Below, piece after piece: positions 4,151 to 21,515 of a DNA stretch of 64,000 bases. This DNA is from a virus. Below the pieces are notes generated by a model. The model did no database searches. It was not told the origin of the DNA and worked only from the letters and a program-made list of their open reading frames with translations. Position 1 is the first letter of the stretch. Each line of letters starts with the position of its first letter. A program made the position numbers and the translations under genes. The stretch covers positions 1-64,000 of the IMG/VR virus record IMGVR_UViG_3300027733_001253, one strand, 5' to 3'.

Positions 4151-4832
4151 TTGGACAGATGATAAAGATACGTTTGGAAGAATGTTTGTTTTAACTCAAA
4201 ACAAATTGTTTAGTCAATTATGCAATGCAGTTGATAATGAGGGTGCTGACTTGTCTGATGCGTTAAGCTGGGGACAACTAAAAAGTAAACGATGGTTAGT
4301 ATCTGAATTAGAAAAATTAAACTTAGATTTAGGTATCATATTTTTATGTGCTGGTTGGTATGCTACATTAGCACCAATGTTATTTGAGAGTAGTTGCATA
4401 ATAGATAAAATTCGTAGCTTTGACATTGATCCGTTGTGTGAACGAGTAGCAGAAACTATAAACAGAGAAAAAGTAAAAAATAATTGGCAATTTAAAGCAG
4501 CTACAGTAGATATACATAATCTAATTTATGAAAATTTTAAATATGAAACTCATAGATATGATAGAAGTAAATTAGAATTAACTGATTCTGCAAACACCAT
4601 CATCAATACTAGCTGTGAACATATACATAATTTTGATGTTTGGTACAATAACATACCTAATAATAAGATAGTTATACTTCAAACCAATAACTACGTTGAG
4701 ATTGAAGATCATATAAATTGTTCTAATAGCTTAGAAGAATTTAGAATACAATCTCCAATGTCTACTATGCTATATGAAGGTGAATTGGCGCTTGATAAGT
4801 ACACACGATATATGCGTATCGGCATAAAATAA
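4140..4832 (+). CDS. Class I SAM-dependent methyltransferase-like protein
   Basis: The 230-residue product shows the alternating strand/helix order of a Rossmann methyltransferase: a hydrophobic strand ending in FLCAGWY (glycine-loop position, degenerate), then SFDIDP with the acidic residue expected to bind SAM ribose, and further on an INTSCEHI strand at the motif IV position. I chose the ATG at 4140 because a good AAGGAG lies 7 nt upstream; a TTG three bases earlier is less likely. The start overlaps the end of the GT-like gene, and the stop overlaps the next start as TAATG, so the three are translationally coupled. The substrate is unknown. Confidence 0.55.
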   Translation: MTINWTDDKDTFGRMFVLTQNKLFSQLCNAVDNEGADLSDALSWGQLKSKRWLVSELEKLNLDLGIIFLCAGWYATLAPMLFESSCIIDKIRSFDIDPLCERVAETINREKVKNNWQFKAATVDIHNLIYENFKYETHRYDRSKLELTDSANTIINTSCEHIHNFDVWYNNIPNNKIVILQTNNYVEIEDHINCSNSLEEFRIQSPMSTMLYEGELALDKYTRYMRIGIK

Positions 4833-5917
4833 TGTATAAATCAAAAGATATAAAGAAAGTTCATTTAGAGATAACACAGTTATGTCAAGCAGCATGTCCA
4901 ATGTGTGACCGCAACGAGAACGGTGGCAAAGATAATAAACACATCACCAATGCTGAACTATCTTTAGATGATTGCAAAAAGATATTCTCCACAAAATTTA
5001 TTAGTCAGCTAGACACAATGTACATGTGCGGTAATTTAGGTGATCCAATAGTTGCTAGAGATACACTAGAAGTATTTCGATATTTTAGAGAACATAATGC
5101 AAACATGTGGCTCAGTATGAATACTAACGCAGGGGCTAGAGATACTGATTGGTGGACAGAATTAGCCAAGATATACAACAACAAAGGTGCTGTAATATTC
5201 TCTGTGGATGGGTTAGTAGATACTAATCATCTATATCGCCAAAATGTTAAATGGAGTATAGTAGAAAACAGTATGCGTAGTTTTATCAATGCAGGTGGCA
5301 GAGCAAGATGGGATTATATCATATTTGAACACAATCAACATCAAGTGGAAGAAGCCGAAAAGTTAGCAAATGAGTGGGGATGTGAAAAATTTACTAAAAA
5401 GAAAACTGCTAGATTTTTTAGCACTGCAAGAAATCAAGGAAAAGAAGAACATCAAGCACAAAATCGGAAAGGCACGGAAACTATATTGCTTAAAAAACCT
5501 AAAGAAGAATTTCAAAATCGTGTTTTATCCAAAGAACAAGAATTAATTGCTCAACACGGGAGCATGACTAAATACTATGACAGTTGTAAAATAGATTGTA
5601 AGGTTGTTAAAGAAGGTAATATTTTTATCACTGCCGAAGGACTGCTTATGCCTTGCTGCTGGACAGCAGGTAGAATGTATAAATGGTGGCATGAAGATTA
5701 CAGAATAGAACAAATTTGGCACATAATTGATAATACAGGCGGTAAAAAAGGCATCGATGTTATCAACAACGATTTGAGTGATGTTATTGACAATAGTAAA
5801 TTATTTTCAAAAATAGAATCAAGTTGGAAATTATCTAGTGTAGCAGCAGGGAAATTAGAAGTGTGTTCACAAAAATGCGGCACAGAGTTTGATGTATTCA
5901 CAGAACAATTTAAGTAA
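4832..5917 (+). CDS. Radical SAM protein with C-terminal SPASM-like cysteines (subfamily A)
   Basis: C18-x3-C22-x2-C25 is the radical SAM [4Fe-4S] motif, and a GNLGDP segment follows at about residue 68 where GGEP is usual. A second cysteine set lies in the C-terminal third (about C251, the pair C274-C275 followed by W, and C344/C348), the layout of SPASM/twitch domains that hold auxiliary Fe-S clusters. Radical SAM enzymes cut SAM to a 5'-deoxyadenosyl radical to start difficult C-H chemistry. Length (361) is typical. Its closest relative in the window is the split gene at 7859-8822. The PP-loop gene follows 2 nt after its stop. The substrate cannot be told. Confidence 0.85.
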   Translation: MYKSKDIKKVHLEITQLCQAACPMCDRNENGGKDNKHITNAELSLDDCKKIFSTKFISQLDTMYMCGNLGDPIVARDTLEVFRYFREHNANMWLSMNTNAGARDTDWWTELAKIYNNKGAVIFSVDGLVDTNHLYRQNVKWSIVENSMRSFINAGGRARWDYIIFEHNQHQVEEAEKLANEWGCEKFTKKKTARFFSTARNQGKEEHQAQNRKGTETILLKKPKEEFQNRVLSKEQELIAQHGSMTKYYDSCKIDCKVVKEGNIFITAEGLLMPCCWTAGRMYKWWHEDYRIEQIWHIIDNTGGKKGIDVINNDLSDVIDNSKLFSKIESSWKLSSVAAGKLEVCSQKCGTEFDVFTEQFK

Positions 5918-5919
5918 TC

Positions 5920-6588
5920 ATGTTTATCAAAAATTCTCAACAGGATATAGATTTTACTATAGATCCACAATTCAATAAAGTGGGAATTAAAATCTCAGGC
6001 GGCGCAGATAGCGCCATGATCTGCTATATACTATCGAAGTATAAAGTAACTGAAAGACCAGAAATCAGTATACATCCTATAACTGCGGTCAATATTTTAA
6101 AACCTTATCAATTTATTTTTAGTAAAAGAGTAATAGAATTTTGTGAGAAAGAATTTGATATCAAATTTAGTGAACATTTACATTGTGATCCTGTAATGGA
6201 AGGACCCGAATTACAAGATGCACAAGATATACTGACTGAAGGAGCGTATAAAAATGAAATTATTGATTGCCATGTCACTGGTATTAATTGCAATCCACCA
6301 CCTGAAGTGTGCAATTCATTTAATGAAGCTGTGATAGACGAGAGAGATTTTAGGAGAGACCGCACAGAAGAAATAAAATCAGTTATGCCGGGACCTAGAT
6401 GTTATAGACCTTTTGCTAATTTAGATAAAAAAGGAATAGCAGAATTATATAATCATTTTAACTTGATGGATACATTATTTCCAATCACTAAAAGTTGCGA
6501 AGCTAAGACTTATGATTGGTCAACACCACATTGTGAAACTTGCTGGTGGTGCCATGAAAGAAAATGGGGATTTGGAAGACTCATATGA
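5920..6588 (+). CDS. QueC-like PP-loop ATP pyrophosphatase, copy 1
   Basis: Residues 26-31 read SGGADS, the PP-loop that binds and adenylates with ATP. The C-terminus carries C193, C205, C208 and C211 in the form SC-x11-C-x2-C-x2-C-x2-R followed by WGF, very like the zinc site of QueC, which makes 7-cyano-7-deazaguanine. At 222 residues it fits the QueC/ExsB range. The middle is not close to textbook QueC, so it may activate a different carboxylate for amidation or nitrile formation. It sits between two radical SAM genes, and its TGA overlaps the next ATG. A second copy at 19177 shares the same C-terminal motif. Confidence 0.78.
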   Translation: MFIKNSQQDIDFTIDPQFNKVGIKISGGADSAMICYILSKYKVTERPEISIHPITAVNILKPYQFIFSKRVIEFCEKEFDIKFSEHLHCDPVMEGPELQDAQDILTEGAYKNEIIDCHVTGINCNPPPEVCNSFNEAVIDERDFRRDRTEEIKSVMPGPRCYRPFANLDKKGIAELYNHFNLMDTLFPITKSCEAKTYDWSTPHCETCWWCHERKWGFGRLI

Positions 6589-7853
6589 AAAATAATTTTA
6601 AAGATATATATGGAATGCCGGAACCGGCTTGTGTGTGGAAATTTTCATGGAGTTCAATAAATATATATGCTAAAAAAACAAACAGTTGTCATAGAGTAAA
6701 CCCCGATGAAATAACAGTTGAAAACATTGAAGATTTTCACAATACTCCTTTAAAATTAAGTACCAGGAAAGATATGTTAGATGGCCGTTGGCCCGGCAAA
6801 GGATGTGAATATTGCGAAAAAATTGAAAAGAGTGGTGGCATTAGTGATAGGATGAGTGTAAATTTAAACGTGCATCCTACTAGCAAACACTATGTAAAAC
6901 CTGCTGTTGAATTGTTAAATAATAATAAAGCTATTAAAGTATCGCCAACTATTGTTGAAGTATATTTCAATAATTTATGTAACATGGCTTGCCTTTATTG
7001 CAATTCAGAATATAGCACGGTATGGGAAAATGAAGATATTAAATTTAATTTAAAATCACAAAAAGAGTTAGATAAACATATTGACAGAAAAAAAGACTAT
7101 CCCATATTAGTAAAAAAATATTGGGCTTGGTTGGAAAAAAATGCATTGTCTATAAGAGAATATAATTTGTTAGGTGGTGAGCCATTTTTTCAACCTGAGT
7201 TTGAACAAAATATAGAATTTTTTGAAACAAATCCATGCCCTGAATTAATTTTTAGTATTTTTTCAAATTTAAAAGTATCAAATACTAAATTTAGAAAAAT
7301 ATTAGATAAAGTAGAAAATTTAGTTACTAAAAATCATATAAAATCTTTTAGAATATTTTGTAGCATTGATGCATGGGGACCACAAGAAGAATATGTTAGA
7401 CATGGTTTAGATTTAATTCAATGGGAAGAAAATTTTAAAACGTTAATAGCAGAATACCCTAAAATAAAATTAGTAGTACATTCTACTATGTGCAACTTAA
7501 CTATAAAAACATATCCAGAATTAATTGAAAAAATTAATTATTATAACAATATCAGAACAACAAATGATCTTTCGCTAATTGAAATTTCTTTTAGTTTTGC
7601 TGACTATATGACTTATTTGCGAGCCGATATATTTCCTAATGGGTTTTTTGATGAAGATTTTGACAGGATGATTGCAGTTGCACCATCTGAATATCTCAAA
7701 GAAAAACTTAGTGGATATCGTGATACTATTAATAATCAACCTTATTGCCCTGAATTAGTAAAAGAACTAAAAATTCAACTAGATGATATAGATAGAAGAA
7801 GAAATTTAAATTGGAAACCTTTATTTCCATGGTTAGATGAATTTGTTATTTAA
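6585..7853 (+). CDS. Radical SAM protein, divergent twitch-type (subfamily B)
   Basis: The start is the ATG at 6585, which overlaps the previous stop as ATGA. The N-terminal region has scattered cysteines (C-x-W near residue 12, and GCEYC near residue 80) comparable to the N-terminal twitch region of the genes at 8812-17133. The radical SAM motif CNMACLYC lies at about C132-C139 and LGGEP near residue 196. The rest has the strand pattern of a partial TIM barrel, with an FCSIDAWG segment matching the SID.xG segments of its paralogues. It is 422 residues long. It probably works with the preceding PP-loop enzyme, but its substrate is unknown. Confidence 0.8.
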   Translation: MKNNFKDIYGMPEPACVWKFSWSSINIYAKKTNSCHRVNPDEITVENIEDFHNTPLKLSTRKDMLDGRWPGKGCEYCEKIEKSGGISDRMSVNLNVHPTSKHYVKPAVELLNNNKAIKVSPTIVEVYFNNLCNMACLYCNSEYSTVWENEDIKFNLKSQKELDKHIDRKKDYPILVKKYWAWLEKNALSIREYNLLGGEPFFQPEFEQNIEFFETNPCPELIFSIFSNLKVSNTKFRKILDKVENLVTKNHIKSFRIFCSIDAWGPQEEYVRHGLDLIQWEENFKTLIAEYPKIKLVVHSTMCNLTIKTYPELIEKINYYNNIRTTNDLSLIEISFSFADYMTYLRADIFPNGFFDEDFDRMIAVAPSEYLKEKLSGYRDTINNQPYCPELVKELKIQLDDIDRRRNLNWKPLFPWLDEFVI

Positions 7854-7858
7854 ATAGC

Positions 7859-8503
7859 ATGAATAATGAAGATATTTGGATAGATGACAGAGTACTACAC
7901 ATAGAACCTACTAGTAGGTGTACGTTAGCATGTCCGCATTGCCCGCGAACATTGTCAATTGATAATATTAAATTAGAAGATTGTGATATTGACACTACCG
8001 TAAAATTAGCTGAGGGAAAAAAGAAGTTTGTCATGTGTGGCAATCACGGTGATCCTATATATCACCCTAAATTTCACGAATTAATATCTAGTATACGAAC
8101 AGCACATCCCCACATGAGTATAGGTATGCATACTAATGGTGCATTTAGAAGTATCGATTGGTGGAAAGAAACAGCAAGCATACTTGACCATCGTGACAAC
8201 ATTGTATTTTCAATAGATGGATTACCAAACAACAATCATTTATATAGAGTTAATAGCAAGTGGGAAACTATTGAAAACGGTATTAAGACTTTAGTAGAAT
8301 ATAATCCTAATATTAAAATAATTTGGAAATGGATTTTATTTAAGTATAATCAATACAATATTGACGAAGGTATATACTTAGCAAGAAAATTAGGATTCCA
8401 TGAATTTAGCATTGTAAAAAGTGTAAGATATGAAAGTGAAGATCCATTAACACCAACGATAGATTGGCAAGAAGTACAGAGGCGCTATGTTAATTTATCC
8501 TAG
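7859..8503 (+). CDS. Radical SAM catalytic half of a split gene (subfamily A)
   Basis: C21-x3-C25-x2-C28 (CTLACPHC) is the radical SAM cluster motif, followed by a CGNHGDP segment near residue 60 that matches GNLGDP of the 4832 gene. FSIDGL and the NHLYR motif are also shared with that paralogue. The frame stops at TAG after 214 residues, just before the region where the paralogue carries its SPASM-like cysteines. Those cysteines continue in the +1 frame in the next ORF. The protein is either a true two-subunit enzyme or one polypeptide made by frameshifting, or the split comes from an assembly error. Confidence 0.8.
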   Translation: MNNEDIWIDDRVLHIEPTSRCTLACPHCPRTLSIDNIKLEDCDIDTTVKLAEGKKKFVMCGNHGDPIYHPKFHELISSIRTAHPHMSIGMHTNGAFRSIDWWKETASILDHRDNIVFSIDGLPNNNHLYRVNSKWETIENGIKTLVEYNPNIKIIWKWILFKYNQYNIDEGIYLARKLGFHEFSIVKSVRYESEDPLTPTIDWQEVQRRYVNLS

Positions 8504-8822
8504 ATGTAAAAAAGGATTAACATCAGACTATATTTCTGCTCATGGCTTCTATTTTCCATGTTGCTGGATAGCAAATGAACCATATATTAATAAAGTGACA
8601 GAATTTTTAGGACCTTTATATGAACAGCTAGATGGTAAAAAATATTCTTTAGCTGAAATGAAAAATAGTCAAGCTATGAAAAAAATAGAAGAAAGTTGGA
8701 AAAATGAAAAATCAGTTTGTTCTAAATTTTGTAGTGACAAAATAAATGACAACATAGATAAGTCTGATGTAAGAGATGATAGTATAAACATTTCATTTAA
8801 AGAAATAAAAAATGACTTCTAA
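8487..8822 (+). CDS. SPASM-like C-terminal half of the split radical SAM gene
   Basis: The 111-residue ORF starts at an ATG 17 nt inside the upstream ORF, with GAGGCG just ahead of it. It holds C7 (YPRCKKG), the FPCCW motif and a C-terminal C-x3-C, the same pattern and spacing as the last third of the 361-residue gene at 4832. It lies in the +1 frame relative to the upstream half, and the upstream stop context TCC-TAG-A would allow a prfB-like +1 shift into it. Alone it would be only an Fe-S accessory domain. Its last codons overlap the next gene by 11 nt. Confidence 0.7.
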   Translation: MLIYPRCKKGLTSDYISAHGFYFPCCWIANEPYINKVTEFLGPLYEQLDGKKYSLAEMKNSQAMKKIEESWKNEKSVCSKFCSDKINDNIDKSDVRDDSINISFKEIKNDF

Positions 8823-10005
8823 AACATTGTGTGTTGTTCCGTGGGTGCATTTAAACTTTCAACCAAATGGTAAAGTAGTTCCGTGTTGTTTGATTAAACC
8901 GCATTACCATGCCGGTGATCTTAATACACAACCTATCAATGAAATATGGAACAGTGATAATATGAAGAAATTACGAAGTGAGATGATGAATAACATTCGT
9001 CCAACTGTATGTAGTTCATGTTTTGATAAAGAAGATGTTACCGGAAAAAGTAATCGTTATTCTCGCAATGAATCTTATTTAGATGTTTTAAAAAATATAC
9101 CTAATATAACAAATTCTGACGGAACTTGTTCTACGATGCATTTGAAGTATTGGGATTTTAGATTTAGCAATCTATGTAATTTTAAATGTCGTAGTTGCGG
9201 ACCTGCATTTAGTAGCGCATGGACACAAGATGCAATTAATTTAAAATGGTTATCTGAACAAAACAAAGTATTAAACACTCCTATTGATTTTAATTTTTTA
9301 GAAAGTCAAATTGATAATGTTGAAGAAATATATTTTGCAGGCGGAGAACCTTTATTGATGCCTGAACATTGGCAAATATTAGATATGTTAGTAGAACATA
9401 AAAAATTTGATGTACGTATACGATACAATACAAACTGTTCTACGTTAACATATGGAAAAAAAGACATACTAGATTATTGGCGCAAGTGGAATTCTGAAAA
9501 GATAAGTGTATGGGCAAGTATTGATGAGATTGGAGATCGTGCTGAATTAGTTCGTTACGGAACAGTATGGAAAAGTGTTGAATCTAATTTAAAACAATTA
9601 TCTAATTTTGATTTTATTAAATTTGGCATTGGAATAACAGTAGGAGTATTAAATGTTAGTAGATTGCCTAATATTATTACATATCTAACTGATTCAAAGA
9701 TAATTAAAAAGAATAATTTTTATATTAATTTAATCGAAGCTCCTGCATATTACAACGTAAGCGTACTTCCAGATGAATTTAAAAAAACAATTACCGATAA
9801 CCTTATATCTTTTGCAAATATATATGACAATAAATACTCAACAAATATAATTTCAGAATTTAAACAAACTTTAGCAGAATTATCAAAACCTTCTAATTTC
9901 AAAGACTTAAATTTATTCATCAAAACAACTAAACAAATAGATAAACTTAGAAATGAAAACACTTGGGAAACTATCCCTGAACTGATAAAATTAAATGACT
10001 TCTAA
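8812..10005 (+). CDS. Radical SAM protein with N-terminal twitch cysteines (subfamily B)
   Basis: The N-terminus has C7-VVPW, C25-C26 and a C-x2-C near residue 68, an auxiliary-cluster module placed before the catalytic domain. The radical SAM motif CNFKCRSC follows at about C122-C129 and AGGEPL near residue 178. It is 397 residues long. The start overlaps the previous stop within ATGACTTCTAA, and the identical 11-nt overlap recurs at the next junction (9995), a trace of tandem duplication. It is one of five close paralogues (8812, 9995, 12299, 13628, 15844). Function is unknown beyond radical SAM chemistry. Confidence 0.83.
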   Translation: MTSKTLCVVPWVHLNFQPNGKVVPCCLIKPHYHAGDLNTQPINEIWNSDNMKKLRSEMMNNIRPTVCSSCFDKEDVTGKSNRYSRNESYLDVLKNIPNITNSDGTCSTMHLKYWDFRFSNLCNFKCRSCGPAFSSAWTQDAINLKWLSEQNKVLNTPIDFNFLESQIDNVEEIYFAGGEPLLMPEHWQILDMLVEHKKFDVRIRYNTNCSTLTYGKKDILDYWRKWNSEKISVWASIDEIGDRAELVRYGTVWKSVESNLKQLSNFDFIKFGIGITVGVLNVSRLPNIITYLTDSKIIKKNNFYINLIEAPAYYNVSVLPDEFKKTITDNLISFANIYDNKYSTNIISEFKQTLAELSKPSNFKDLNLFIKTTKQIDKLRNENTWETIPELIKLNDF

Positions 10006-11383
10006 AACATTCTGTATTTTACCTTGGGTACATCTCAGCACTCGTCCAGATGGGCAGATGCGTGTATGCTGTACTGCCAACGCTAGTAGTGTAGGCATCA
10101 CTAATGACAAAATTGGTGGTGGTAATGTAGGCATATTAAAAGATGAAGAAGGTCGTCCTAATAATCTGAACGTGAGTGATTTTGTCTCTAGTTGGAATAG
10201 TACTTACATGAGGAACGTGCGTAAGCAGATGTTGAACGGTGAAGAACCACCAAGCTGTCGCAAGTGTTATGAAGAGGAACGAGCAGGACATAACAGCAAA
10301 CGCATGTGGGAAACTAAGTATTGGAAAGAAAGAGTTGACTTAGATAAGTTATTAGCTGAGACAACAAGTGACGGCGAAGTACCACCTCAATTAGCATATA
10401 TTGATTTAAGATTTGGAACTAAATGTCAGTTGGCTTGCATCATGTGCAGCCCGCATGACAGTTCAGGTTGGATTAAAGAATGGCAAAATATCTATCCTAC
10501 CATTGAAAATAAGAATGTAAAAGAGATATGGCAATGGGATAATAAAGGAAGTACAAACGGAAGCAGCTATAATTGGCACAAGAATAATCCAGTATTTTGG
10601 AAACAGTTCTATGAACAGATTCCAAACATGAAGCAATTGTATTTTGCAGGTGGCGAGAGTCTCATCATTGAAGAACACTATGATATCTTAGAAGAATGCA
10701 TCCGTCAAGGATATGCTAAAGATATGGAGATACGCTATAACAGTAACGGAGTAGAATGGCGTGAAGATTTATTTGAATTATGGAAACATTTCAAGATTGT
10801 TCGTTTTCACTATAGTGTAGACAGTATACATGAGATGAACGATTACATACGTTATCCAAGCAAATGGAGTCGTACAGAAGAAGTATTTCATATACTAGAT
10901 ACACAGACTAGCGACAATGTAGAGATAACTGTTGCATGTGCAGTCAACGCATTGAACATTTATTACATTCCAGACTTTGTAAAATGGAAGTTAGAGCAGA
11001 ACTTCAAGAAAATAAATATGTGGCCATTCGGTGCGGGTGGCATCAACTATCACTTTGTCTATTGGCCTGCATTTTTGAACGTGAAGATATTGCCTAAATG
11101 GTTCAAAGATGAGTGCGAACGCAAGTATGAAGAATTCATACCGTGGTGGGAAGAAAATTGGGAGTTAGGTATTCCATCATGGCACAAAGGTAAAGTAACC
11201 AAAGAAGATTGGAAAGTTGCGTCTTATGGTATTGATAGACTGCGCGGTATGATTAGCTTTATGAAAAGCGATGATTGGAGCGTGAGATTACCAGAAACTA
11301 AAGACTACCTCGAGAAGGTTGATAGATATCGCGGTACTAATTTTTATGACACTTTTCCAGAAATGAAAGATATATTTAAATGA
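9995..11383 (+). CDS. Radical SAM protein with N-terminal twitch cysteines (subfamily B)
   Basis: C7-ILPW, C25-C26 and C88-x2-C91 form the N-terminal cysteine module. CQLACIMC at about C144-C151 is the radical SAM cluster site. The GGEP position reads AGGES, a Pro-to-Ser change. YSVDS and RYPSKW match the substrate-barrel segments of its paralogues. At 462 residues it is the longest of the group, because of an aromatic-rich C-terminal stretch with many Trp. It overlaps the upstream gene by 11 nt and the downstream gene as ATGA. Its composition is less AT-rich than the flanking genes, so it may be an older or differently acquired copy. Confidence 0.83.
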   Translation: MTSKTFCILPWVHLSTRPDGQMRVCCTANASSVGITNDKIGGGNVGILKDEEGRPNNLNVSDFVSSWNSTYMRNVRKQMLNGEEPPSCRKCYEEERAGHNSKRMWETKYWKERVDLDKLLAETTSDGEVPPQLAYIDLRFGTKCQLACIMCSPHDSSGWIKEWQNIYPTIENKNVKEIWQWDNKGSTNGSSYNWHKNNPVFWKQFYEQIPNMKQLYFAGGESLIIEEHYDILEECIRQGYAKDMEIRYNSNGVEWREDLFELWKHFKIVRFHYSVDSIHEMNDYIRYPSKWSRTEEVFHILDTQTSDNVEITVACAVNALNIYYIPDFVKWKLEQNFKKINMWPFGAGGINYHFVYWPAFLNVKILPKWFKDECERKYEEFIPWWEENWELGIPSWHKGKVTKEDWKVASYGIDRLRGMISFMKSDDWSVRLPETKDYLEKVDRYRGTNFYDTFPEMKDIFK

Positions 11384-12306
11384 TACCTATTCACTTAACT
11401 AATTCTGGTCCAAAAAACATAGCAATGATATCGTTTAAACCACATAATGTGTGTAATTATACATGTGATTATTGTCACCCAAATAGTAATGATGGTTCTG
11501 AAAGATGGAATATAAATTATATAGCTGTAGCTAACTTTATTAACAAAGTACGACAAAAAAACTCACATGTGTGTTTAGAGATAATAGGTGGGGAACCCAC
11601 ACAATGGCCGCAATTACAAGCATTTATGGATAGCGTTTCACATGAAAATCTTGTGATTGAAATAAACACCAATGGATCTAGGACTCTCAGATATTGGGAA
11701 CAGTTTAAGTCTAGCAATTCAATGTTTTTGTTTTCATGGCACTCAAAAGAAGTGGACACTGAGCATTTGGTACAGGTTGTTAAAATAATGAAAGATAAAT
11801 GTTTCCCAATGGTTTCATTATTGATAACGCCTGATTATTGGGAAAAAGGGTTAACTGCTATTAAGGAATTTGAAAAATTAGATATATTAATTGATATTAA
11901 ACCCGTAAGAAAAAGTTTAATATGCGATGAGTTATATCCATATACTGAAAGTCAATTAGAGTACATTCGATCATATCCTAAAAAAACTTCTATTATTAGT
12001 TTTCCAACATGGTTAGATTTATATCCAAAGAATATTTTTTTAAACGGAGTTCAAGCAAATTGGAACAGTTTAGTAGTGAATCAAAAAAACATTTTTACAG
12101 ATTGGAAATGCAATGCAGGAATAGACCGTTTTGTAATTGATCCAAATGGTGATATATCTAGATGCTGGCCAAGAGTAGGTGGAAAAATAGGCAATGTTTA
12201 TTCTGGATATACTTTACCAACAGAACCCATAACTTGCACATATAAACATGAATGTCATTGTAAGCAAGATGCTTTAGTTGAGAAATGGTCTCCTAATTAT
12301 GTCTAA
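11380..12306 (+). CDS. Radical SAM protein, subfamily C (CNYTCDYC)
   Basis: C25-NYT-C29-DY-C32 is the catalytic motif and IGGEPT appears near residue 71. The C-terminal part has a WKCNAG segment, an SRCWP segment and a final C-x5-C-x-C group, compatible with one auxiliary cluster. It is 308 residues long. It resembles the gene at 18071 (CNYKCSYC, SGGEPT, ECNSG) rather than its immediate neighbours. It overlaps the upstream gene by 4 nt and the next gene by 8 nt, so it is co-translated with the subfamily B copies. The substrate is unknown. Confidence 0.82.
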   Translation: MIPIHLTNSGPKNIAMISFKPHNVCNYTCDYCHPNSNDGSERWNINYIAVANFINKVRQKNSHVCLEIIGGEPTQWPQLQAFMDSVSHENLVIEINTNGSRTLRYWEQFKSSNSMFLFSWHSKEVDTEHLVQVVKIMKDKCFPMVSLLITPDYWEKGLTAIKEFEKLDILIDIKPVRKSLICDELYPYTESQLEYIRSYPKKTSIISFPTWLDLYPKNIFLNGVQANWNSLVVNQKNIFTDWKCNAGIDRFVIDPNGDISRCWPRVGGKIGNVYSGYTLPTEPITCTYKHECHCKQDALVEKWSPNYV

Positions 12307-13624
12307 TACATATTGTCCGTTGCCGTGGATAGGAGTAAGCACTAGGAGTACCGGTGATTTACGAGTTTGTTGTCAAGCAGATTCCTCTATTACTAAAGGT
12401 TCAATAACAAAAGACAACGGTGAAAACTTTAATATAGCCAAAGATGGATTAGAAACGTTTAGAAATTCCAAAATTCTAAAAGAAGTAAGAAAAACTATAC
12501 TAGCTAACGAGTCTCCAAAAATGTGTAGTAGGTGCGTGAAAGAAGAATCTACTGGATATAGAAGTAATAGAATACAGATGATTGAGAATTGGAATAAAGA
12601 ATTTTCATTAAATGATGCAGTAACTAGAACGAATGAAGATGGTTCTATAGATGAAACTAGTGTACCCATTAAATATGCAGATTTAAGATTTGGTAATCTA
12701 TGCAATCTTAAATGTAGAATGTGCGGCCCAACTGATTCCAGTGCTTGGTATGATGACCATGTTACTTTATTTAATAATAATTATTTTACTGATCAATCGG
12801 GTAATCAATTAAAAATTATAACAAACTTAACTGAAAAAGCAAAACTAGAGACAGATATTTATAATTGGCATGAACAAGAACTATTTTGGAAAAATTTAGA
12901 AAAGCATATACCTAATCTTAAGCATATTTTTATTATAGGCGGAGAGCCATTGTTAATAGACAATCATTATAGCTTTTTAGAAAAATGCATTTCATTGGGT
13001 TATGCTAATCAAATTTATATTGAAGTAATGACTAATCTCACTAACATACCTAAAAAAGCATGGGGGCTATGGGAACATTTTAAACTGATTCAAATTGCTC
13101 CTAGTATTGATGGAGTCGGAGAATTAAATGATTATATACGATATCCAAGTAAATGGAAACAGATTGAAAATAACTTGTCTAAATTAACTACTGCAAAAGG
13201 AAATTTTAGAACAGTTATATCTCCTACCATTATGGTTTTTAACCTGTTACAGCTACCAGAGTTAATGTTATGGAAATTTGAAAATTTCCCTGATACAAAA
13301 TTTGATTCACATTTATTACACGGACCTGCACGTTATAATATTAAAATTTTTCCATTAACTAGTAAACTTTTTATAAGTAACTATTTTGAAGAATGCAAGG
13401 TAACATATAAAGAAAGAATTATGAATACAAAAACACAAGAAATTAATTACAAGTTTTTTTGTAAGGAGCTAGATAGGGCAGTAAAATTTATGAACTCTGA
13501 AGATTTGTCACATGAACTTACTAATTTTTTTGAGATAACTAATAAATTAGATCAAATGAGAGATCAATCATTAGAGATTGTTAGTCCAATTACATATAAA
13601 TTATTAAAAGAAATGAGCACTTAA
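12299..13624 (+). CDS. Radical SAM protein with N-terminal twitch cysteines (subfamily B)
   Basis: The ATG at 12299 was chosen over an upstream in-frame ATG at 12278 because MSN-TYCPLPW aligns with the starts of the paralogues. C6, C24-C25 and a C-x2-C near residue 80 are the N-terminal module. CNLKCRMC near C135 is the cluster motif, followed by CGPTDSSAW, IGGEPL and DYIRYPSKW. It is 441 residues long. It is very similar in layout to the next gene, consistent with tandem duplication. Confidence 0.83.
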   Translation: MSNTYCPLPWIGVSTRSTGDLRVCCQADSSITKGSITKDNGENFNIAKDGLETFRNSKILKEVRKTILANESPKMCSRCVKEESTGYRSNRIQMIENWNKEFSLNDAVTRTNEDGSIDETSVPIKYADLRFGNLCNLKCRMCGPTDSSAWYDDHVTLFNNNYFTDQSGNQLKIITNLTEKAKLETDIYNWHEQELFWKNLEKHIPNLKHIFIIGGEPLLIDNHYSFLEKCISLGYANQIYIEVMTNLTNIPKKAWGLWEHFKLIQIAPSIDGVGELNDYIRYPSKWKQIENNLSKLTTAKGNFRTVISPTIMVFNLLQLPELMLWKFENFPDTKFDSHLLHGPARYNIKIFPLTSKLFISNYFEECKVTYKERIMNTKTQEINYKFFCKELDRAVKFMNSEDLSHELTNFFEITNKLDQMRDQSLEIVSPITYKLLKEMST

Positions 13625-13627
13625 ATT

Positions 13628-14947
13628 ATGTCTGATACGTTTTGTCCTTTGCCTTGGGTTTACCAAGCATTCCGTAACAACGGAGATGTTCGCGTTTGCT
13701 GTCAAGCAAATCAAAGTCCTAATAGGGGAATCCTTATCAGAGATGATGGCACTACATTTAATGCTGCAACAGCCAATTTAGATGAATCACGTAATTCAGA
13801 GTTAATGAAGCGTCTTAGAAAGAACATGATTGTAGGTGAATGGAGTCCTGAATGTAAAAGATGCACAGTAGAAGAAAACAATGGATTGACCAGCAACAGA
13901 CATTATGCTATTGCTGATTGGGAAATGTCATTAGATGATGTAATAAATGATACTAGTGATGATGGAACTATTGATATTGAGAAATTTCCGGTTATATCTT
14001 ATGACATGAGGTTTGGAAATCTATGTAATCTAGTTTGCAGAATGTGCGGTCCCACTGATAGTCATAGTTGGTATGAGCAATGGGCTTCTTACACTGGAAA
14101 AGATAGCTTTAATGATACACACGGAAAAGTTCAGCTTATTAGAAACAGCGTAGGCAGACTTGCTACTAATGATTATGATTGGCATGACTCAGAGAATTTT
14201 TGGACACAAATTGAGAGTAACTTGGCTAACATACGGCATGTTTATATGGCAGGAGGCGAACCATTAATGATAGAGAGGCACTACGAGTTCTTACAAAAAT
14301 GCATAGACAAGGATGTTGCCAAAAATATAAAATTAGAATATAATACTAACGGAACCACATTACCCAAAAGAGCATTAGAATTATGGAAAAAATTCAAGCA
14401 AGTAGAGTTAGGAGTAAGTATAGATGGATTTGGTAAGGTAGTCGAATATCAAAGATGGCCTGTTAAATGGAGTCAACTATACCCCAATCTACAAAAATTA
14501 AATAAGTTAGTAGAGACTCAAACAAATATAAAATGCTGGTTGACCGTTACAGTTACCGCATATAATGCTTTACATATAGCTGATTTTGTTGAATGGAAAA
14601 TATTTGAAAGTGGTCTAGATAGTATAAGGTCAAATCGTCCTATAATATCACATCATGTAGCACATCGTCCATTGTCATTAAATGTTAGGGTACTGCCACC
14701 TGAGATAAAAACTCAGATAGAAACTAGATACAAAGAATCTATGATTAAATTAAATGAATCTGAAATTGACAGTGCGTTAATTGAACGTGCAAATGATATA
14801 TACACTGGAATTCTTACATACATGAATCAAGAAGACCTGCACGAAACTCAATTTTCAGAGTTTGTAAATTATACTAAGTTTTTAGATAAAGAACGTAATC
14901 AAGATATAGTTGATATAATTCCATCATTAGAGAAATACTTCTTATAA
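13628..14947 (+). CDS. Radical SAM protein with N-terminal twitch cysteines (subfamily B)
   Basis: C6-PLPW, C24-C25 and C-x2-C (ECKRC) precede the radical SAM motif CNLVCRMC near C133, CGPTDS, AGGEPL and SIDGFG. It is 439 residues long. Three bases separate it from the preceding paralogue. Its 3' end overlaps the convergent aminotransferase-like gene by 6 nt. The aligned N-terminal and barrel motifs make it the closest partner of the 12299 gene. Confidence 0.83.
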   Translation: MSDTFCPLPWVYQAFRNNGDVRVCCQANQSPNRGILIRDDGTTFNAATANLDESRNSELMKRLRKNMIVGEWSPECKRCTVEENNGLTSNRHYAIADWEMSLDDVINDTSDDGTIDIEKFPVISYDMRFGNLCNLVCRMCGPTDSHSWYEQWASYTGKDSFNDTHGKVQLIRNSVGRLATNDYDWHDSENFWTQIESNLANIRHVYMAGGEPLMIERHYEFLQKCIDKDVAKNIKLEYNTNGTTLPKRALELWKKFKQVELGVSIDGFGKVVEYQRWPVKWSQLYPNLQKLNKLVETQTNIKCWLTVTVTAYNALHIADFVEWKIFESGLDSIRSNRPIISHHVAHRPLSLNVRVLPPEIKTQIETRYKESMIKLNESEIDSALIERANDIYTGILTYMNQEDLHETQFSEFVNYTKFLDKERNQDIVDIIPSLEKYFL

Positions 14948-15787
14948 ACATCTCAACAAAGGTCTGATACCTACGATTTTTCCTTGCATTGTTTTAGCTA
15001 CATGTATAGATTTAGTGGGTATTAGATTGAAATCTTCACATACTTTATAGTATCTAGTCTCATATTTTTTCCAGAAATATTCAGAACCTAACTCTTGCAT
15101 AAACTTCAATCCAGTATGTAACAGGCTTTTGCAATTCATATTAAAGTCATTCATTATGGTTATCGCTCCACATGGTCTAGTGCGTGAAAATCGTACACCT
15201 ATTCTATCATTGCCCATTCCACCTTTGCTTAGACTTACAGCAAAAGTTTTGATAGCAGGGTGATCAAAGTTGAATGTTATATCTCTACTACAAGTTATCC
15301 ATGCACCGTCTAAATGCACGGGTATATCTAGTTGTTCGCAACGGTCTAATATAGTATGCATTAATGGATGCACATCTCCGTGTGCAGGGAAAGGCATAGA
15401 GATTATCAATTCTTTATTTGGAACAAGCGTATCTAATGTAACATATTCAATGTCATTGTTCAATCTCCAGTGATATTTGTAATCATTTTCAAATATCATA
15501 ACATCATTGGTACCTACACGCTGATAGATATCATCAATAAATTGGGTACACCCCACACATATATCAGTATGAGGGAACATATCAATACCTGATAATTTAC
15601 TGAGTGAATGATTGTTAAGAAAATGTATGAATTCTATTTTGAATTCATTAGCTATATCATCATTGTATGCCGGATTGGTGTAGAAAACTGATTCATATAG
15701 TTTGTTGATAGATGAATCGTACATGGGTTGAGGGCGTTCATGTTGTAGCCATTCACTTGTATATTGTCTATTCTCCGAATCACGCAT
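14942..15787 (-). CDS. PLP-dependent aminotransferase-like protein (fold type I)
   Basis: Near residues 159-195 the sequence reads HLDGAW followed by FAVSLSKGGMGNDRIGVRF. An SLSKG lysine flanked this way is the Schiff-base lysine of aspartate-aminotransferase-fold enzymes, and the DGAW aspartate matches the residue that contacts the PLP pyridine nitrogen. Downstream R residues could hold a carboxylate substrate. At 281 residues it is short for the fold (usually 350-400), so parts of the small domain may be missing. It is the only minus-strand gene inside the plus-strand island and diverges from the 15844 gene across a palindromic promoter-like site. It could add or remove an amino group in the island's pathway. 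Confidence 0.65.
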   Translation of the reverse strand: MRDSENRQYTSEWLQHERPQPMYDSSINKLYESVFYTNPAYNDDIANEFKIEFIHFLNNHSLSKLSGIDMFPHTDICVGCTQFIDDIYQRVGTNDVMIFENDYKYHWRLNNDIEYVTLDTLVPNKELIISMPFPAHGDVHPLMHTILDRCEQLDIPVHLDGAWITCSRDITFNFDHPAIKTFAVSLSKGGMGNDRIGVRFSRTRPCGAITIMNDFNMNCKSLLHTGLKFMQELGSEYFWKKYETRYYKVCEDFNLIPTKSIHVAKTMQGKIVGIRPLLRCL

Positions 15788-15804
15788 AAGTATTGTTCCC
15801 AGCG

Positions 15805-15823
15805 TATTTATACTGTATAAATA
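15805..15823. promoter_or_regulatory. Palindromic divergent T4-like late promoter
   Basis: A perfect 9+1+9 palindrome TATTTATAC-T-GTATAAATA lies in the 56-bp divergent gap. It places TATAAATA, the T4 late-promoter consensus, on both strands, 21 bp before the plus-strand gene at 15844 and 18 bp before the minus-strand gene at 15787. Host repressor operators are also palindromic, so an operator is the alternative. Confidence 0.65.
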
Positions 15824-15843
15824 TCAATAACAAATAAGAATAT

Positions 15844-17133
15844 ATGTGGTGCCCTTTACCTTGGACTCATGTCGCAATTAAAAATAACGGAACACTCCGT
15901 ATGTGTTCCCATAGTCAAAGTGGTAGTAATGAAAATACCGTGCTGTCCAAAGATAAAGTGACATTGAAAGCAGATAGTTTAGCTAACATAGACAATGTAT
16001 TAAATTGTGACACACTTAAGCAAGTACGCAAAGATATATTAAATGGGGTGTGGCCAGAACAATGCAAGCGGTGTGAGGTTGATACTAGTACGGGAAGTAA
16101 CAGCAGAAACGATTGGGAAACTAAAAGACATTTAGATACATTTACTATTGATGATGCTATCAACAGCACGACCGTCGACGGTACGATAACTAATTCAAAG
16201 TTAGTTTCACTAGACCTTAGGATAGGAAATCAATGTAATCTACGATGTGTAATGTGTTTTCCCGGTGAATCTACCTTATGGTATAAAGATTATCAAGAGA
16301 TAACTGGACATGATCATTTTATTGTAGATGACAAGATTTACAATCTGAAATTAGCTGATAGCGACTTTGATTGGGCCAATGACAAAGATAAGATAGATGC
16401 ATTAATCGAAAATTCAAAATATTTAAACAAGATTAAGTTCGGTGGCGGTGAACCATTAATAATTAAGTACCATCATTATCTATTGAATAGGTTGATAGAA
16501 GAAGGTTACGCAAAAAACATTGAGTTAGAATATAGCGTGAACTTAACTGTATTCCCTCCGTTGTTGTTTGACATGTGGAAAAAATTCAAAGTGATTAGAA
16601 TTTGCGCTAGTGTAGATGCGTATGGAATTGCTAACGATGCTGTTCGTTACCCTTCAAAATGGGAAACTATTGAACAAAATTTAAAAATGTTGGATGAATC
16701 TGCGGAAAACATTACTGTGTTCACTTCTACTACAGTAAGTATATTAACACTGGAACATTACTCTGACTTAATGATATGGATAAAGAAGCAAAACTATAAG
16801 AAGATAAACAGAGACATAGAAAATCCTGGTACTAGTCATTTAGTATATAACCCAGCATTTTTCAATATCAATTTACTTGATGAACGGCAACAGAATACTA
16901 TATTTGATATTGTAAAAAACAAAGCTAACGGGGACAAAAAAATATTAAAAAAACTTGATTCTTATGAGAAGTATTGTACCTCATCTCGTATGATAATGTC
17001 TGAATCGTTGCTCAATGAAACACGAAAACAATTAGTAGGAGTATTTAATCGGTTAGCTATAAATCAAAAACAAGATTGGATTAATATTTTTCCATTTGTT
17101 TCTACTTTAATAAAAACATGGAGCTATATATGA
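15844..17133 (+). CDS. Radical SAM protein, subfamily B with altered N-terminal Cys pair
   Basis: C3-PLPW begins the N-terminal module, but the usual CC pair reads C21-S22, so one potential auxiliary ligand is lost. ECKRC-type spacing is kept as QCKRC. CNLRCVMC near C131 is the radical SAM site, with CFPGES after it and GGGEPL near residue 200. It is 429 residues long. It is transcribed from its own promoter-like palindrome, unlike the upstream copies, which depend on coupling. Its stop overlaps the likely start of the next gene as ATGA. Confidence 0.83.
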   Translation: MWCPLPWTHVAIKNNGTLRMCSHSQSGSNENTVLSKDKVTLKADSLANIDNVLNCDTLKQVRKDILNGVWPEQCKRCEVDTSTGSNSRNDWETKRHLDTFTIDDAINSTTVDGTITNSKLVSLDLRIGNQCNLRCVMCFPGESTLWYKDYQEITGHDHFIVDDKIYNLKLADSDFDWANDKDKIDALIENSKYLNKIKFGGGEPLIIKYHHYLLNRLIEEGYAKNIELEYSVNLTVFPPLLFDMWKKFKVIRICASVDAYGIANDAVRYPSKWETIEQNLKMLDESAENITVFTSTTVSILTLEHYSDLMIWIKKQNYKKINRDIENPGTSHLVYNPAFFNINLLDERQQNTIFDIVKNKANGDKKILKKLDSYEKYCTSSRMIMSESLLNETRKQLVGVFNRLAINQKQDWINIFPFVSTLIKTWSYI

Positions 17134-18074
17134 ATGATGATGAACTAATTTTAGAAGCATTATGCAATTATCCAATATACTATCTCATGTATGGTGGAGG
17201 GGCAGGTGGTGAATTTTTAACTAATTTAATCTCGACACATACTAAAAAATTTAGGAATAATGTTTCTACTCAAGTTATTGTAACTTCAGAAAATAGAACT
17301 TTAGTCAGATTGCCATATTTTTTTCATTTAGTATATCATTGCAACCTTACTTACAATTCATCAATTACTGATTTAATCAATGTCATAAAAACTAAAAATG
17401 ATTTTTTAGGGTATAACATAAAAGACAAAGTAAATGAGGCTATTGTTTATTTAAAACAAGATCACAAGCCACCTTTGTTTAGATGCAATATTTTATCAAA
17501 TTCATACTTTACTAAAGAAAATACTTATTTGATATGTGCTGATAATGAAAAATGGTATACTTATGCAGGAAGTTTATTATTTATAAAAGATTTAGCAGTT
17601 AAACATATCTGCCTTAAAGAGAATGATAAAATTAAATTTTTTGAGCATGACCGTAGTAGGTATATAAATGACGCTGAATTGTCTAGCTTGTTAAACAATG
17701 GACTAGATTGGGTTATAAAAAATAACATAACGATTATGTACGGAATGCAGTTAGACGTAATTGCATATATGAAATATGATAAAAACATTACCTTTAATGA
17801 AATTTTTAATTCAACTCCGTTTGATTTATATAATAAGTATTTTTATAAAATAATGGGAAATTTTGAAGCCTATTCAAATTTTCAAATCCCAGCATTAAAA
17901 GAAAGAGGAGTTACTATTATTGATTATTCTAAAATCTTTATTAAAGGATATTTAGAAGAAATATTTGATATTGACTATGATTCATCATTTAATGATGAAT
18001 TGATTGTTTGGCACAAAAAGAATTTGTCGTTATTGTCCAAACATGGATTTAATGTGGCCCCATATATATTATGA
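17130..18074 (+). CDS. Unrecognised protein with glycine-rich loop (possible sulfotransferase-like fold)
   Basis: I prefer the ATG at 17130, which overlaps the previous stop as ATGA, over one 12 nt upstream. Near residue 20 a hydrophobic strand leads into YGGGAGGEFL, a phosphate-binding-loop-like turn, followed by an amphipathic helix. A similar arrangement (MPGSSGQLLL) opens the gene at 21516. PAPS-dependent sulfotransferases have such a loop near the N-terminus, but I see no clear second PAPS motif, so this is a weak guess. The C-terminal half is rich in Phe, Tyr, Lys and Asn, with no membrane segments. It overlaps the next gene by 4 nt. Confidence 0.4.
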   Translation: MNDDELILEALCNYPIYYLMYGGGAGGEFLTNLISTHTKKFRNNVSTQVIVTSENRTLVRLPYFFHLVYHCNLTYNSSITDLINVIKTKNDFLGYNIKDKVNEAIVYLKQDHKPPLFRCNILSNSYFTKENTYLICADNEKWYTYAGSLLFIKDLAVKHICLKENDKIKFFEHDRSRYINDAELSSLLNNGLDWVIKNNITIMYGMQLDVIAYMKYDKNITFNEIFNSTPFDLYNKYFYKIMGNFEAYSNFQIPALKERGVTIIDYSKIFIKGYLEEIFDIDYDSSFNDELIVWHKKNLSLLSKHGFNVAPYIL

Positions 18075-19180
18075 CTGATTTAAAATACAGTGATTATGAT
18101 TTCACTAAAATCCCATTTAAAGATATAGTGCAAGTAGGCCAACGAACTTTATTGTATCGTGACCTATTCACCGTCAGTTGGTTGCTAGGTAGATTTTGTA
18201 ACTACAAATGTAGCTATTGCTGGCCTTATGCCCGTAGTGATACGAAAGACCATAGACCTACAGAGTTATGCTTAAGTACTATAGATGAGATAAAATCTCA
18301 AGCTAGACTTAATGGATTTAATAGTTTTCATTTTAGTCTAAGTGGTGGTGAACCTACGTTTCATCCTGGATATCTAGACATACTAAAGTATCTAGCGAAT
18401 GATGTAGACAATACTAATTACACTAGCATACATATGACCAGTAACTGTTCTAGGAATATGAAATGGTTTGAGACATATGTAGAACATGCTAAGAAATTTC
18501 ATCGTGCTAGCATCACGGCGAGTCTACACACAGAGCATCTTGACACGATTGAGAAGATGCAAGACTTTGCAGATAAACTGATATTCTGTCAAGAACATGA
18601 TGTACAGATAACCATCAACATGGTAATGGTTCCCGCATGGTTTGATAAAGACTACGAGAATGCATTGTTCTTCCACAATCAAGGAATCAATGTCACGTTG
18701 AAACCGCAGAGCGATCCTACTGCTAATTTTGTAGTCAGTGGGTATACTGAAGAACAGATGAAACAGTTACATAATGGTATGCCGCAACGTGCTTATACTG
18801 AAAAGAAGCGTGTATGGAATGATAGACCAAAAGCTAAATTTGAAGTTCCTCCTCACATGGCAGGAGAAAATGATAGTAGTGTGCCTGCACACATGCAAGT
18901 AGAATTCACTGATAAATACGGTAAGAAATGGTACATGGATCAAGCAGAACGATTCAATGCGTTCGGGTTCAACAATTTTAAAGGTTGGGAATGTAATAGT
19001 GGATTTCAAGGCATAATCATCAGAGAACCAGATGGTAGTATCAAGCGTAGTTATAGTTGCACTGATACTCCACTGGGAAACATAGAGACTGGATTCAAAT
19101 TATTCGATAAGCCTATGATTTGTATAAGTAATTCATGTGTAAGTAGTGCCGATAGTAAATTGCCAAAGAGGACGATATGA
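18071..19180 (+). CDS. Radical SAM protein, subfamily C (CNYKCSYC)
   Basis: C43-x3-C47-x2-C50 is the catalytic motif, and LSGGEPTFHPGY near residue 92 is a textbook SAM-binding segment. The C-terminal region has ECNSGFQG, a single C in SYSCTD and a final C-x3-SC, possibly one auxiliary cluster. It is 369 residues long. The window's other subfamily C member is at 11380. Like the subfamily A gene at 4832, it is followed directly by a QueC-like PP-loop gene (4-nt overlap), which suggests two radical SAM/PP-loop pairs. Confidence 0.84.
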   Translation: MTDLKYSDYDFTKIPFKDIVQVGQRTLLYRDLFTVSWLLGRFCNYKCSYCWPYARSDTKDHRPTELCLSTIDEIKSQARLNGFNSFHFSLSGGEPTFHPGYLDILKYLANDVDNTNYTSIHMTSNCSRNMKWFETYVEHAKKFHRASITASLHTEHLDTIEKMQDFADKLIFCQEHDVQITINMVMVPAWFDKDYENALFFHNQGINVTLKPQSDPTANFVVSGYTEEQMKQLHNGMPQRAYTEKKRVWNDRPKAKFEVPPHMAGENDSSVPAHMQVEFTDKYGKKWYMDQAERFNAFGFNNFKGWECNSGFQGIIIREPDGSIKRSYSCTDTPLGNIETGFKLFDKPMICISNSCVSSADSKLPKRTI

Positions 19181-19812: not shown

Positions 19813-20333
19813 AGTACGCAATTACAGGTCATACTCAAGGGATAGGATTAGCATTGACTAATTTATTAGAATCAAATTATATAGGGTTCTCTAAGAGTAA
19901 TGGATATGATATTACAGTTAAAGAAAACAGAGAATCTATAATATTACAGTCTATTGAGTGTGATGTATTCATCAATAATGCATACGCTGATTTTAATCAG
20001 GTAACTTTGTTATACGAGTTATTTAAAGTTTGGCAAGGTTCCAACAAAATAATAGTTAATATAGGTTCATCCACTACTTGCGGAATCAAAAATTTTCCCC
20101 ACATGTATACAGCACACAAAATTGCATTAGACAAAGCCTCTGAGCAATTAAGTCATTTAGACGATCCATGCAAAGTAATTAATATTAAATTTGGCTGGGT
20201 AGGTACTCAACGGGTATTAAGAGATTGTAACCCTGAATCATATATAGAAGTTAGCGATGCTGCAAAATATATAATAGAACAGATTAATTGGGGAATTAAA
20301 TATAGAGTTACTGAATGCTTAATTAGACCATAA
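19809..20333 (+). CDS. Short-chain dehydrogenase/reductase
   Basis: The start is the ATG at 19809, overlapping the previous stop. Residues 6-13 are TGHTQGIG, the TGxxxGxG NAD(P)-binding motif. INNAYAD fits the NNAG position, IGSS holds the catalytic Ser, and Y-x-A-H-K is the catalytic YxxxK. At 174 residues it is short for a classical SDR (about 250), lacking much of the C-terminal substrate-binding part. It probably reduces a carbonyl or oxidises an alcohol in the island's pathway. Confidence 0.82.
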   Translation: MKYAITGHTQGIGLALTNLLESNYIGFSKSNGYDITVKENRESIILQSIECDVFINNAYADFNQVTLLYELFKVWQGSNKIIVNIGSSTTCGIKNFPHMYTAHKIALDKASEQLSHLDDPCKVINIKFGWVGTQRVLRDCNPESYIEVSDAAKYIIEQINWGIKYRVTECLIRP

Positions 20334-20353
20334 CATTATTAATATAATATCAA

Positions 20354-20935: not shown

Positions 20936-20944
20936 TTAGATTAA

Positions 20945-21514: not shown

Positions 21515-21515
21515 C

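Follow-up and report, generated by a model that had tools for sequence, protein, structure and literature searches.

A conserved radical SAM cassette beside tail fibre genes in a T4-like jumbo phage and its relatives

Ten radical SAM (rSAM) genes, each with an intact CX3CX2C motif, lie in a tight gene string at 4832–19180 of the window, the 64,000-nucleotide stretch analysed here (positions 1 to 64,000 of IMG/VR record IMGVR_UViG_3300027733_001253). The string is part of a cassette that recurs across hundreds of IMG/VR contigs and runs in the order of a glycosyltransferase-like gene (GT2), a methyltransferase-like gene (MT), the small protein P75, an rSAM gene of type A (rA), an rSAM gene of type B (rB0) and a closing stretch of rSAM and PP-loop genes that varies. 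We infer a substrate, reactions and a biological role for the block, which we read tentatively, at somewhat less than an even chance, as a phage tailoring island whose rSAM C–H chemistry may alter a surface glycoconjugate, be it one of the host envelope or one of the phage fibres.

The rSAM gene string

The record is that of a 231-kb T4-like jumbo phage with a gp23 match (E 6e-99) and 20 rSAM matches genome-wide at E<=0.01. A second rSAM island, which encodes a UDP-glucose dehydrogenase, is located at about 122–130 kb of the same record, and fibre-type genes occur near both islands. Intergenic gaps between plus-strand neighbours from 2564 to 22271 measure −25 to +20 nt, the exception being at the minus-strand gene. 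Misassembly of the block is unlikely, since two further IMG/VR contigs match it identically over 19,380 bp (three contigs in all). Recent tandem duplication within this phage is unsupported, nearly all type-B proteins of the window and of the second island being nearest in the tree to other phages.

The initial annotation had placed ten rSAM proteins of three cysteine layouts (types A, B and C) in this block, and all ten were found where it put them, with the layouts as described. PF04055 matches every one of them (E 7e-4 to 2e-12), the weakest matches, 4832 and 6564, falling under the Pfam gathering score, and each protein carries a GGEP/GGES or GN[LH]GDP segment. All six type-B proteins (6564, 8812, 9995, 12299, 13628 and 15844) pass the 170-bit cut-off of NF033640 at 217–423 bits, a score that none of the other four reaches, so that by sequence type B is the NCBIfam subfamily N_Twi_rSAM. 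The auxiliary cysteine module of SPASM/twitch type is present, with invariant cysteines in the alignments A2 and A3; in type B it is N-terminal (in 9995, C7, C25/26, C88 and C91 precede C144/148/151), in type A it is C-terminal (C256, C275/276, C345 and C349 in 4832), and type C is marked by the motif CNYxCxYC. Profile comparison did not establish direct homology between the type-A and type-B SPASM modules; the rSAM cores do match (96%).

The string is preceded by two conserved cassette genes, the glycosyltransferase-A-like GT2 (2564..4150, plus strand, as are all genes below unless noted), with a weak Glyco_tranf_2_3 match below the cut-off (E 7e-4), and the class-I methyltransferase-like MT (4137..4832; alignment A4), for which Pfam and NCBIfam gave no convincing match and a function is suggested by motifs only. 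MT is a short form here, its relatives having N-terminal helical repeats that are absent from this phage. Next comes rA (4832..5917; PF04055 E 6e-4), the core enzyme with a C-terminal SPASM-like module. Its alignment A3 has a mean column identity of 66%, and its AlphaFold model (pLDDT 87) predicts an rSAM enzyme fold that resembles BlsE, SkfB, SuiB, MoaA and BtrN. A PP-loop ATPase with a QueC-like C-terminal cysteine cluster follows (5920..6588; PF06508 E 1.2e-4, at the cut-off; alignment A5), and then a type-B gene of the c19 family (6564..7853; NF033640 E 3e-64, above the cut-off; CX3CX2C at residue 139). The previously proposed gene positions hold, except that the type-B gene first placed at 6585 has a possible start at 6564 and the gene at 12299 has a TTG further upstream, at 12278.

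The entry 7859/8487 comprises two separate ORFs, a type-A rSAM core subunit lacking a SPASM of its own (7859..8503; PF04055 E 1e-8) and, paired with it, a free-standing SPASM subunit (8487..8822; cysteines at 7, 25/26, 78 and 82) that matches the type-A C-terminal module by profile (probability 97%, E 6e-11). A sequencing error can be rejected, because the same division into a core ORF and a SPASM ORF is seen again in the loci L079, L088 and L038 (reversed order) and in the cultivated phage Mosig.

Further along are a type-B gene of the r49 family (8812..10005; NF033640 E 3e-109; N-terminal SPASM PF13186 E 2e-14), rB0, the most conserved B enzyme (9995..11383; NF033640 E 1e-126), a type-C gene (r46; 11380..12306; PF04055 E 1e-7; CNYTCDYC) and two more type-B genes (12299..13624, NF033640 E 5e-106, and 13628..14947, E 1e-113). 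A PLP aminotransferase-like gene on the minus strand (14942..15787; weak NCBIfam valine-pyruvate transaminase match, E 1.6e-4), with relatives in other islands and 29% identity to the Mosig aminotransferase, is followed by the last type-B gene (15844..17133; NF033640 E 4e-87), an orphan protein without family match (17118..18074) and rC6 (18071..19180; PF04055 E 2e-12), a type-C gene that is core in part of the group and has relatives of at least 50% identity in 36 loci. A second QueC-like PP-loop ATPase lies just after the block (19177..19812; PF06508 E 2.5e-6, above the cut-off). The non-rSAM genes inside the block are the PP-loop gene at 5920, the PLP-like gene and the orphan. The oxygenases and the desaturase lie at 20–25 kb and not between rSAM genes.

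The operon flank (19770..22271) comprises a short-chain-dehydrogenase-like gene (19770), an Asp/Asn beta-hydroxylase-like gene (20354) and two orphans (20945 and 21516). Tailoring genes on the opposite strand (22223..25845, minus) include a TauD dioxygenase, a fatty acid desaturase, two unassigned genes (23846 and 24450) and an SDR-like gene. An IscU/NifU-type Fe-S scaffold (26978..27358, minus; PF01592 E 5e-53) could plausibly supply the rSAM enzymes with clusters. Searching the PDB with MT, GT2 and PP-loop profiles returned nothing firm.

A conserved core with a variable tail

The rSAM expansion in an operon-like block is real, and the expectation that the same genes recur in other phages was strongly borne out for GT2, MT, rA and rB0, and often for rC6. 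That the expansion is peculiar to one phage is wrong: 48 homologous loci over 20 kb carry 9.6 rSAM genes on average (maximum 15), so that about ten per 20 kb is the group average, and 11–12 per genome have been reported elsewhere. rB0 was found in 253 IMG/VR stretches, the 80 kept being 76–100% identical, and relatives at 50% identity or more were found in 117 loci for rA, in 88 for MT and in 27 for GT2. The order is conserved under three separate anchors, rB0, P75 and rA. Loci anchored on rA contain GT2 in 62/74 cases, MT in 59/74 and a further rSAM gene downstream in 71/78; with P75 as anchor, rA lies within five genes in 73 of the 76 loci having downstream genes, and MT within three genes upstream in 74/78. 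The conserved set does not extend to the whole block: at 50% identity, the only relatives of 5920, 6564, 7859/8487, 11380 and 15844 among the fetched loci are on contigs of the same phage, and the block is thus a conserved core with a variable tail, whose gene content differs greatly between loci.

P75 is a virus-specific protein of 75 residues that directly or almost directly precedes rA in most loci. IMG/VR yielded 426 stretches with it, a set of 84,980 species genomes gave 2 MAG contigs, and 50,697 phage records gave no instance. Conservation extends over its entire length, and structure prediction gives a folded, helical protein (pLDDT 87) that has no fold match in the PDB or BFVD at E<=0.001; its sequence matches in the PDB (designed repeat proteins, antibodies) look spurious.

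The tail shows a regularity of its own, in that 100 of 108 PP-loop genes immediately follow an rSAM gene, compared with 43 on average and 60 at most over 2000 permutations. This pairing and the conserved order and high identity of the rA and rB0 orthologues argue against there being no single pathway but unrelated rSAM orphans that accumulated in a plastic region, an explanation that would suit the poor conservation of several window members and the great variation of the tail and that we consider quite improbable, and disfavour for the core.

A fibre-family gene occurs within about 8 kb upstream of the cassette in 47/56 loci, and c21 matches the tail fiber PHROG 19602. In relatives, near-consensus sigma-70 promoters stand on the cassette, right after or divergent from fibre genes with late promoters. 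In this phage, two divergent T4-type late promoter motifs (TATAAATA; 15805..15823) are located inside the island as exact motifs, 18–21 nt from the starts of 14942 (minus) and 15844 (plus), and no clear sigma-70 promoter was seen at 2564, so that expression timing is not uniform.

Possible substrates of the island

In the tailoring scheme that we favour, the block would be this phage's version of an island located in the host-recognition part of the genome. The near-constant core (GT-A-like transferase, MT-like protein, usually P75, rSAM-A and rSAM-B0) would make or mark a common substrate, which the variable tail of further rSAM/SPASM enzymes, rSAM–PP-loop pairs and oxygenases would modify differently in each phage, much as an O-antigen locus combines constant with variable parts. 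Strong conservation of rA beside a varying tail is as expected of a constant core with variable decoration. The likely substrate would be a surface glycoconjugate, either of the infected cell's envelope, with receptor masking or exclusion of rivals as the outcome, or of the phage's own fibres. The conserved order, the adjacency to fibres, sugar-type partner genes (the UDP-glucose dehydrogenase of the second island, a carbamoyltransferase in relatives, GT8-like genes, and the aminotransferase, carbamoyltransferase and glycosyltransferase-like genes of Mosig and K566 described below), the sigma-70 promoters in relatives and the precedent of the host recognition clusters discussed below speak for it. 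Against it, no enzyme has an assigned substrate, family matches of GT2, GT8 and MT are weak or absent, the solved SPASM/twitch enzymes nearest in fold have peptide substrates no less often than sugar or nucleoside ones, the late motifs of this island make its timing differ from that of relatives, and the adjacency to fibres could reflect a recombination hot spot instead of function.

The main rival, which we regard as rather unlikely, is that a ribosomally made substrate, P75 or the fibre proteins, is modified as by RiPP or sulfatase maturases. It draws on the position of the virus-specific P75 next to rA in most loci, on nearest solved relatives that include SkfB, SuiB and anSME, and on the neighbouring fibre genes. 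P75 as a classical precursor is weakened by its predicted fold and its conservation throughout, where a precursor would have a variable core, by its absence from this phage's record and by its going unrecognised in 14/59 loci having MT; nor does the gene string in the window have space for a short precursor gene beside a maturase.

That the island instead makes a modified nucleoside or another small molecule, such as a DNA modification of 7-deazaguanine type or a nucleotide akin to those of viperin, appears improbable. The PP-loop genes match QueC, the type-C proteins are weakly QueE-like and viperin-like, and QueD-like and QueE-like genes are present at about 221–224 kb. The latter are, however, about 200 kb from the island on the record, and of the preQ0 genes looked for (QueD, QueE and QueC) the island has only QueC-like PP-loop genes. 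The viperin resemblance is at superfamily level, the best block score of about 40 bits lying below the NCBIfam viperin cut-off of 180 bits. To our knowledge, no described deazaguanine route needs six SPASM/twitch enzymes.

A bolder form of the surface-tailoring reading, which we hold to be unlikely, is a virus-specific system in hundreds of aquatic phages, in which a conserved rSAM pair, P75 as scaffold or carrier and exchangeable rSAM/PP-loop modules would yield a phage-specific surface chemistry, a combinatorial decoration not known from cells. If surface tailoring is right, a widespread aquatic phage group devotes 10–20 kb to radical C–H chemistry tied to host recognition, which bears on how phages alter surfaces and compete for cells. 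These cassettes would also be a rich and little-studied source of SPASM/twitch enzymes, among them an rSAM/SPASM enzyme that is split by nature, and of a conserved rSAM–PP-loop pairing.

Comparison with known systems

The initial annotation could match the block to no described pathway, and none for the cassette was found among open PMC texts. NF033640, the twitch domain-containing radical SAM entry to which the six type-B proteins belong, is a sequence subfamily whose entry shows no assigned reaction.

A close precedent is the host recognition cluster of pelagimyophages, in which rSAM cassettes accompany tail fibres and glycosyltransferases (PMC7029224). Both are hypervariable islands of T4-like phages where fibre and glycosyltransferase genes are present, and fibres also stand beside the cassette in relatives. 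Neither a core order nor P75, a PP-loop pairing or a split rSAM is described in the passages of that account considered here (PMC7029224), and the capsid protein of this phage is nearest to the jumbo T4-like phages Vibrio 2.275.O and Pseudomonas PA5oct. Another uncultured aquatic T4-like phage, the marine TARA_ERS488813_N000010, resembles this one in combining many rSAM genes (12, compared with 20 here) with Fe-S assembly genes, there an Fe-S carrier; its rSAM genes were read as Fe-S cluster supply or use, and no cassette analysis was found in that study (PMC5332604). The T4-related Campylobacter phages CP220 and CPt10 encode 11 and 12 rSAM proteins, five of them in an exchangeable central module that has a glycine amidinotransferase (PMC2853527). 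These modules appear unrelated to the cassette at tblastn sensitivity, because the 9995 and 4832 proteins matched no Campylobacter phage. New here are the conserved core, P75, the rSAM/PP-loop pairing, the recurrent pair of split rSAM and free-standing SPASM and the sigma-70 promoters in relatives.

Among cultivated phages, the island of Pelagibacter phage Mosig EXVC030M shares an MT homologue (30%), a split rSAM core with a 113-aa SPASM-like neighbour, and PLP, TauD, desaturase and carbamoyltransferase genes, and it is sited between fibres and VrlC, as are an ArnB-annotated aminotransferase and the carbamoyltransferase; it differs in having few rSAM genes and no P75, rB0 or rA orthologue that could be found. 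Vibrio phage K566 has four B-type rSAM genes with, as read from sequence, glycosyltransferase-like genes among them. With their diverged islands, Mosig and K566 make the readings proposed here testable.

The radical SAM block and its genome

All ten radical SAM (rSAM) genes that the initial annotation had placed at 4832-19180 were recovered at their positions, each with a Radical_SAM (Pfam) match and an intact CX3CX2C motif (10/10 for both), and plus-strand neighbours in the block overlap or almost touch. The six proteins grouped there as type B by cysteine layout do form a subfamily, all exceeding the cut-off of NCBIfam NF033640 (twitch-domain subfamily). The region is identical, with no mismatch over 19,380 bp, in two other IMG/VR contigs. 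The whole viral record (230,993 bp) contains a gp23 capsid gene whose closest counterparts are in T4-like jumbo phages infecting Vibrio and Pseudomonas, and yields 20 rSAM matches. Besides the ten of the window, six lie at about 122-130 kb, where one protein also has a B12-binding domain; the remaining four, at other positions, include one PhpK-like and one QueE-like enzyme.

At about 221.3-223.7 kb of the record (L091:7295-9717), QueD-like, rSAM/SPASM and QueE-like proteins adjoin; placement of an rSAM gene between those two is, in our view, unusual, and it might be a component of deazaguanine DNA modification. At about 137.3-139.5 kb (L095:4325-6532), a 735-aa rSAM protein similar to PhpK-type and other B12-dependent rSAM methyltransferases adjoins a repetitive GT2-like protein of 1353 aa.

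The window also carries, on the minus strand, a tRNA gene array (1-1903; 12 by ARAGORN, 13 Rfam matches, one cut by the window end), rubrerythrin and IscU/NifU-type Fe-S scaffold genes (26173-27358; the IscU is 83% identical to that of locus L113) and two giant proteins with collagen-like repeats (2607 aa at 39897-47720, 2970 aa at 50028-58940), which are probably fibres. No relatives were found for the proteins at 17118-18074 and 21516-22271, whose N-termini resemble glycine-rich P-loop-type motifs (GGGAGGEFL, MPGSSGQLLL).

A conserved cassette in other viruses

The block is not peculiar to one phage: scanning IMG/VR with the 9995 protein (rSAM-B0) gave 253 relatives, 80 of which were kept (identity 76-100%). 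Gene calling and clustering of these loci revealed the recurring gene order for which a check had been proposed, namely fibre-type genes, two GT8-like genes, GT2-like genes (2564 here), a methyltransferase-like gene (MT; 4137), a virus-specific 75-aa protein (P75), rSAM-A (4832), rSAM-B0, PP-loop genes and further rSAM genes. The 48 rSAM-B0 loci over 20 kb hold a mean of 9.6 rSAM genes (maximum 15), a mean valid for this group only, since its loci were picked for having rSAM-B0. In loci retrieved with P75 as the sole query (426 relatives), rSAM-A lies within five genes in 73/76 and MT at most three genes upstream in 74/78. A separate scan with rSAM-A as the sole query gave at least 586 relatives, with GT2 in 62, MT in 59 and P75 in 57 of 74 loci; these tallies count contigs rather than independent events, as the scans partly overlap and some near-identical contigs remain. 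In relatives, the MT N-terminus bears a varying number of helical-looking repeats (LRKAVxExNLHSLFRL; e.g. L063:6822-7895), which the window's copy lacks.

Of 108 PP-loop genes counted, 100 come directly after an rSAM gene (expected 43, at most 60 in 2000 shuffles), an adjacency that suggests consecutive steps. Judged from sequence, 7859 and 8487 are a split rSAM enzyme, 8487 matching the type-A C-terminal module by profile (probability 97%, E 6e-11); the split recurs in two further loci (L079, L088) and Pelagibacter phage Mosig, and in reversed order in L038.

Fibre setting and promoters

Of the 56 P75 loci with sufficient flank, 47 have a fibre-family gene upstream. Judged by sequence, as are all promoters here, T4-type late motifs often precede fibre genes (14/23 TF12, 9/28 c16; background 0.2%). 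The cassette begins instead with predicted sigma-70 promoters: sites with 11 or 12 matches out of 12 occur before 18/27 c14 and 16/70 GT2 genes (background 0.5%), and boxes of TTGAC type and TATAAT type, spaced by about 17 nt, lie immediately between the fibre gene and the cassette. This arrangement suggests early transcription of the cassette in the relatives bearing it. The window's phage differs: it has two divergent late motifs at 15805/15816, and no good sigma-70 site was found before 2564. In L027, L034, L063, L077 and other loci the -10 box ends about 6-7 nt 5' of the GT2 start codon, which would give an almost leaderless mRNA.

Likely function

The second island, at about 122-130 kb, encodes a UDP-glucose dehydrogenase, relatives carry a carbamoyltransferase, GT-like genes are present, and the island of phage Mosig has an annotated UDP-4-amino-arabinose aminotransferase and a carbamoyltransferase between fibres and VrlC; such nameable neighbours point to sugars and surfaces. 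PMC7029224 describes host recognition clusters containing fibres, glycosyltransferases and rSAM cassettes. On both grounds the best-supported reading, held tentatively, is a tailoring island that would act on a surface glycoconjugate.

The main rival, somewhat unlikely, is a ribosomal substrate, either P75 or the fibres. P75 occurs in 426 viral IMG/VR stretches and on two MAG contigs among 84,980 species genomes, and is absent from the 50,697 phage records searched; it is predicted to be compact and helical (pLDDT 87), and no structural match to the prediction was found. It was not found in this phage's record, yet MAG contig L180, a near relative whose GT2, MT, rSAM-A and rSAM-B0 match at 85-95%, encodes P75 between its MT and rSAM-A genes; P75 is therefore a common but not indispensable part of the cassette. 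A nucleoside or other small molecule as the product is improbable. The strongly conserved rSAM-A (mean column identity 66%) resembles BlsE, SkfB, SuiB, MoaA, anSME and BtrN in fold, which leaves its substrate undecided because similar folds cover sugar-nucleoside, peptide and nucleotide chemistry; by sequence, the closest solved structures are NifB for rSAM-A (E 3e-5) and SkfB for rSAM-B0 (E 1.6e-5). Least probable, by a little, is a set of unrelated orphans, set against the recurring gene order.

Comparison with known systems

As the initial annotation had found no pathway to match, so the open PMC texts yield no description of the cassette or its pathway. To our knowledge, earlier work describes neither the conserved core nor how widely it occurs, nor P75, the pairing of rSAM with PP-loop genes, the split enzyme that recurs in several loci, the arrangement of promoters or a count of 20 rSAM genes in one record. 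Against the 20 rSAM genes here, T4-like Campylobacter phages have 11 and 12 (PMC2853527) and a marine T4-like genome has 12 (PMC5332604).
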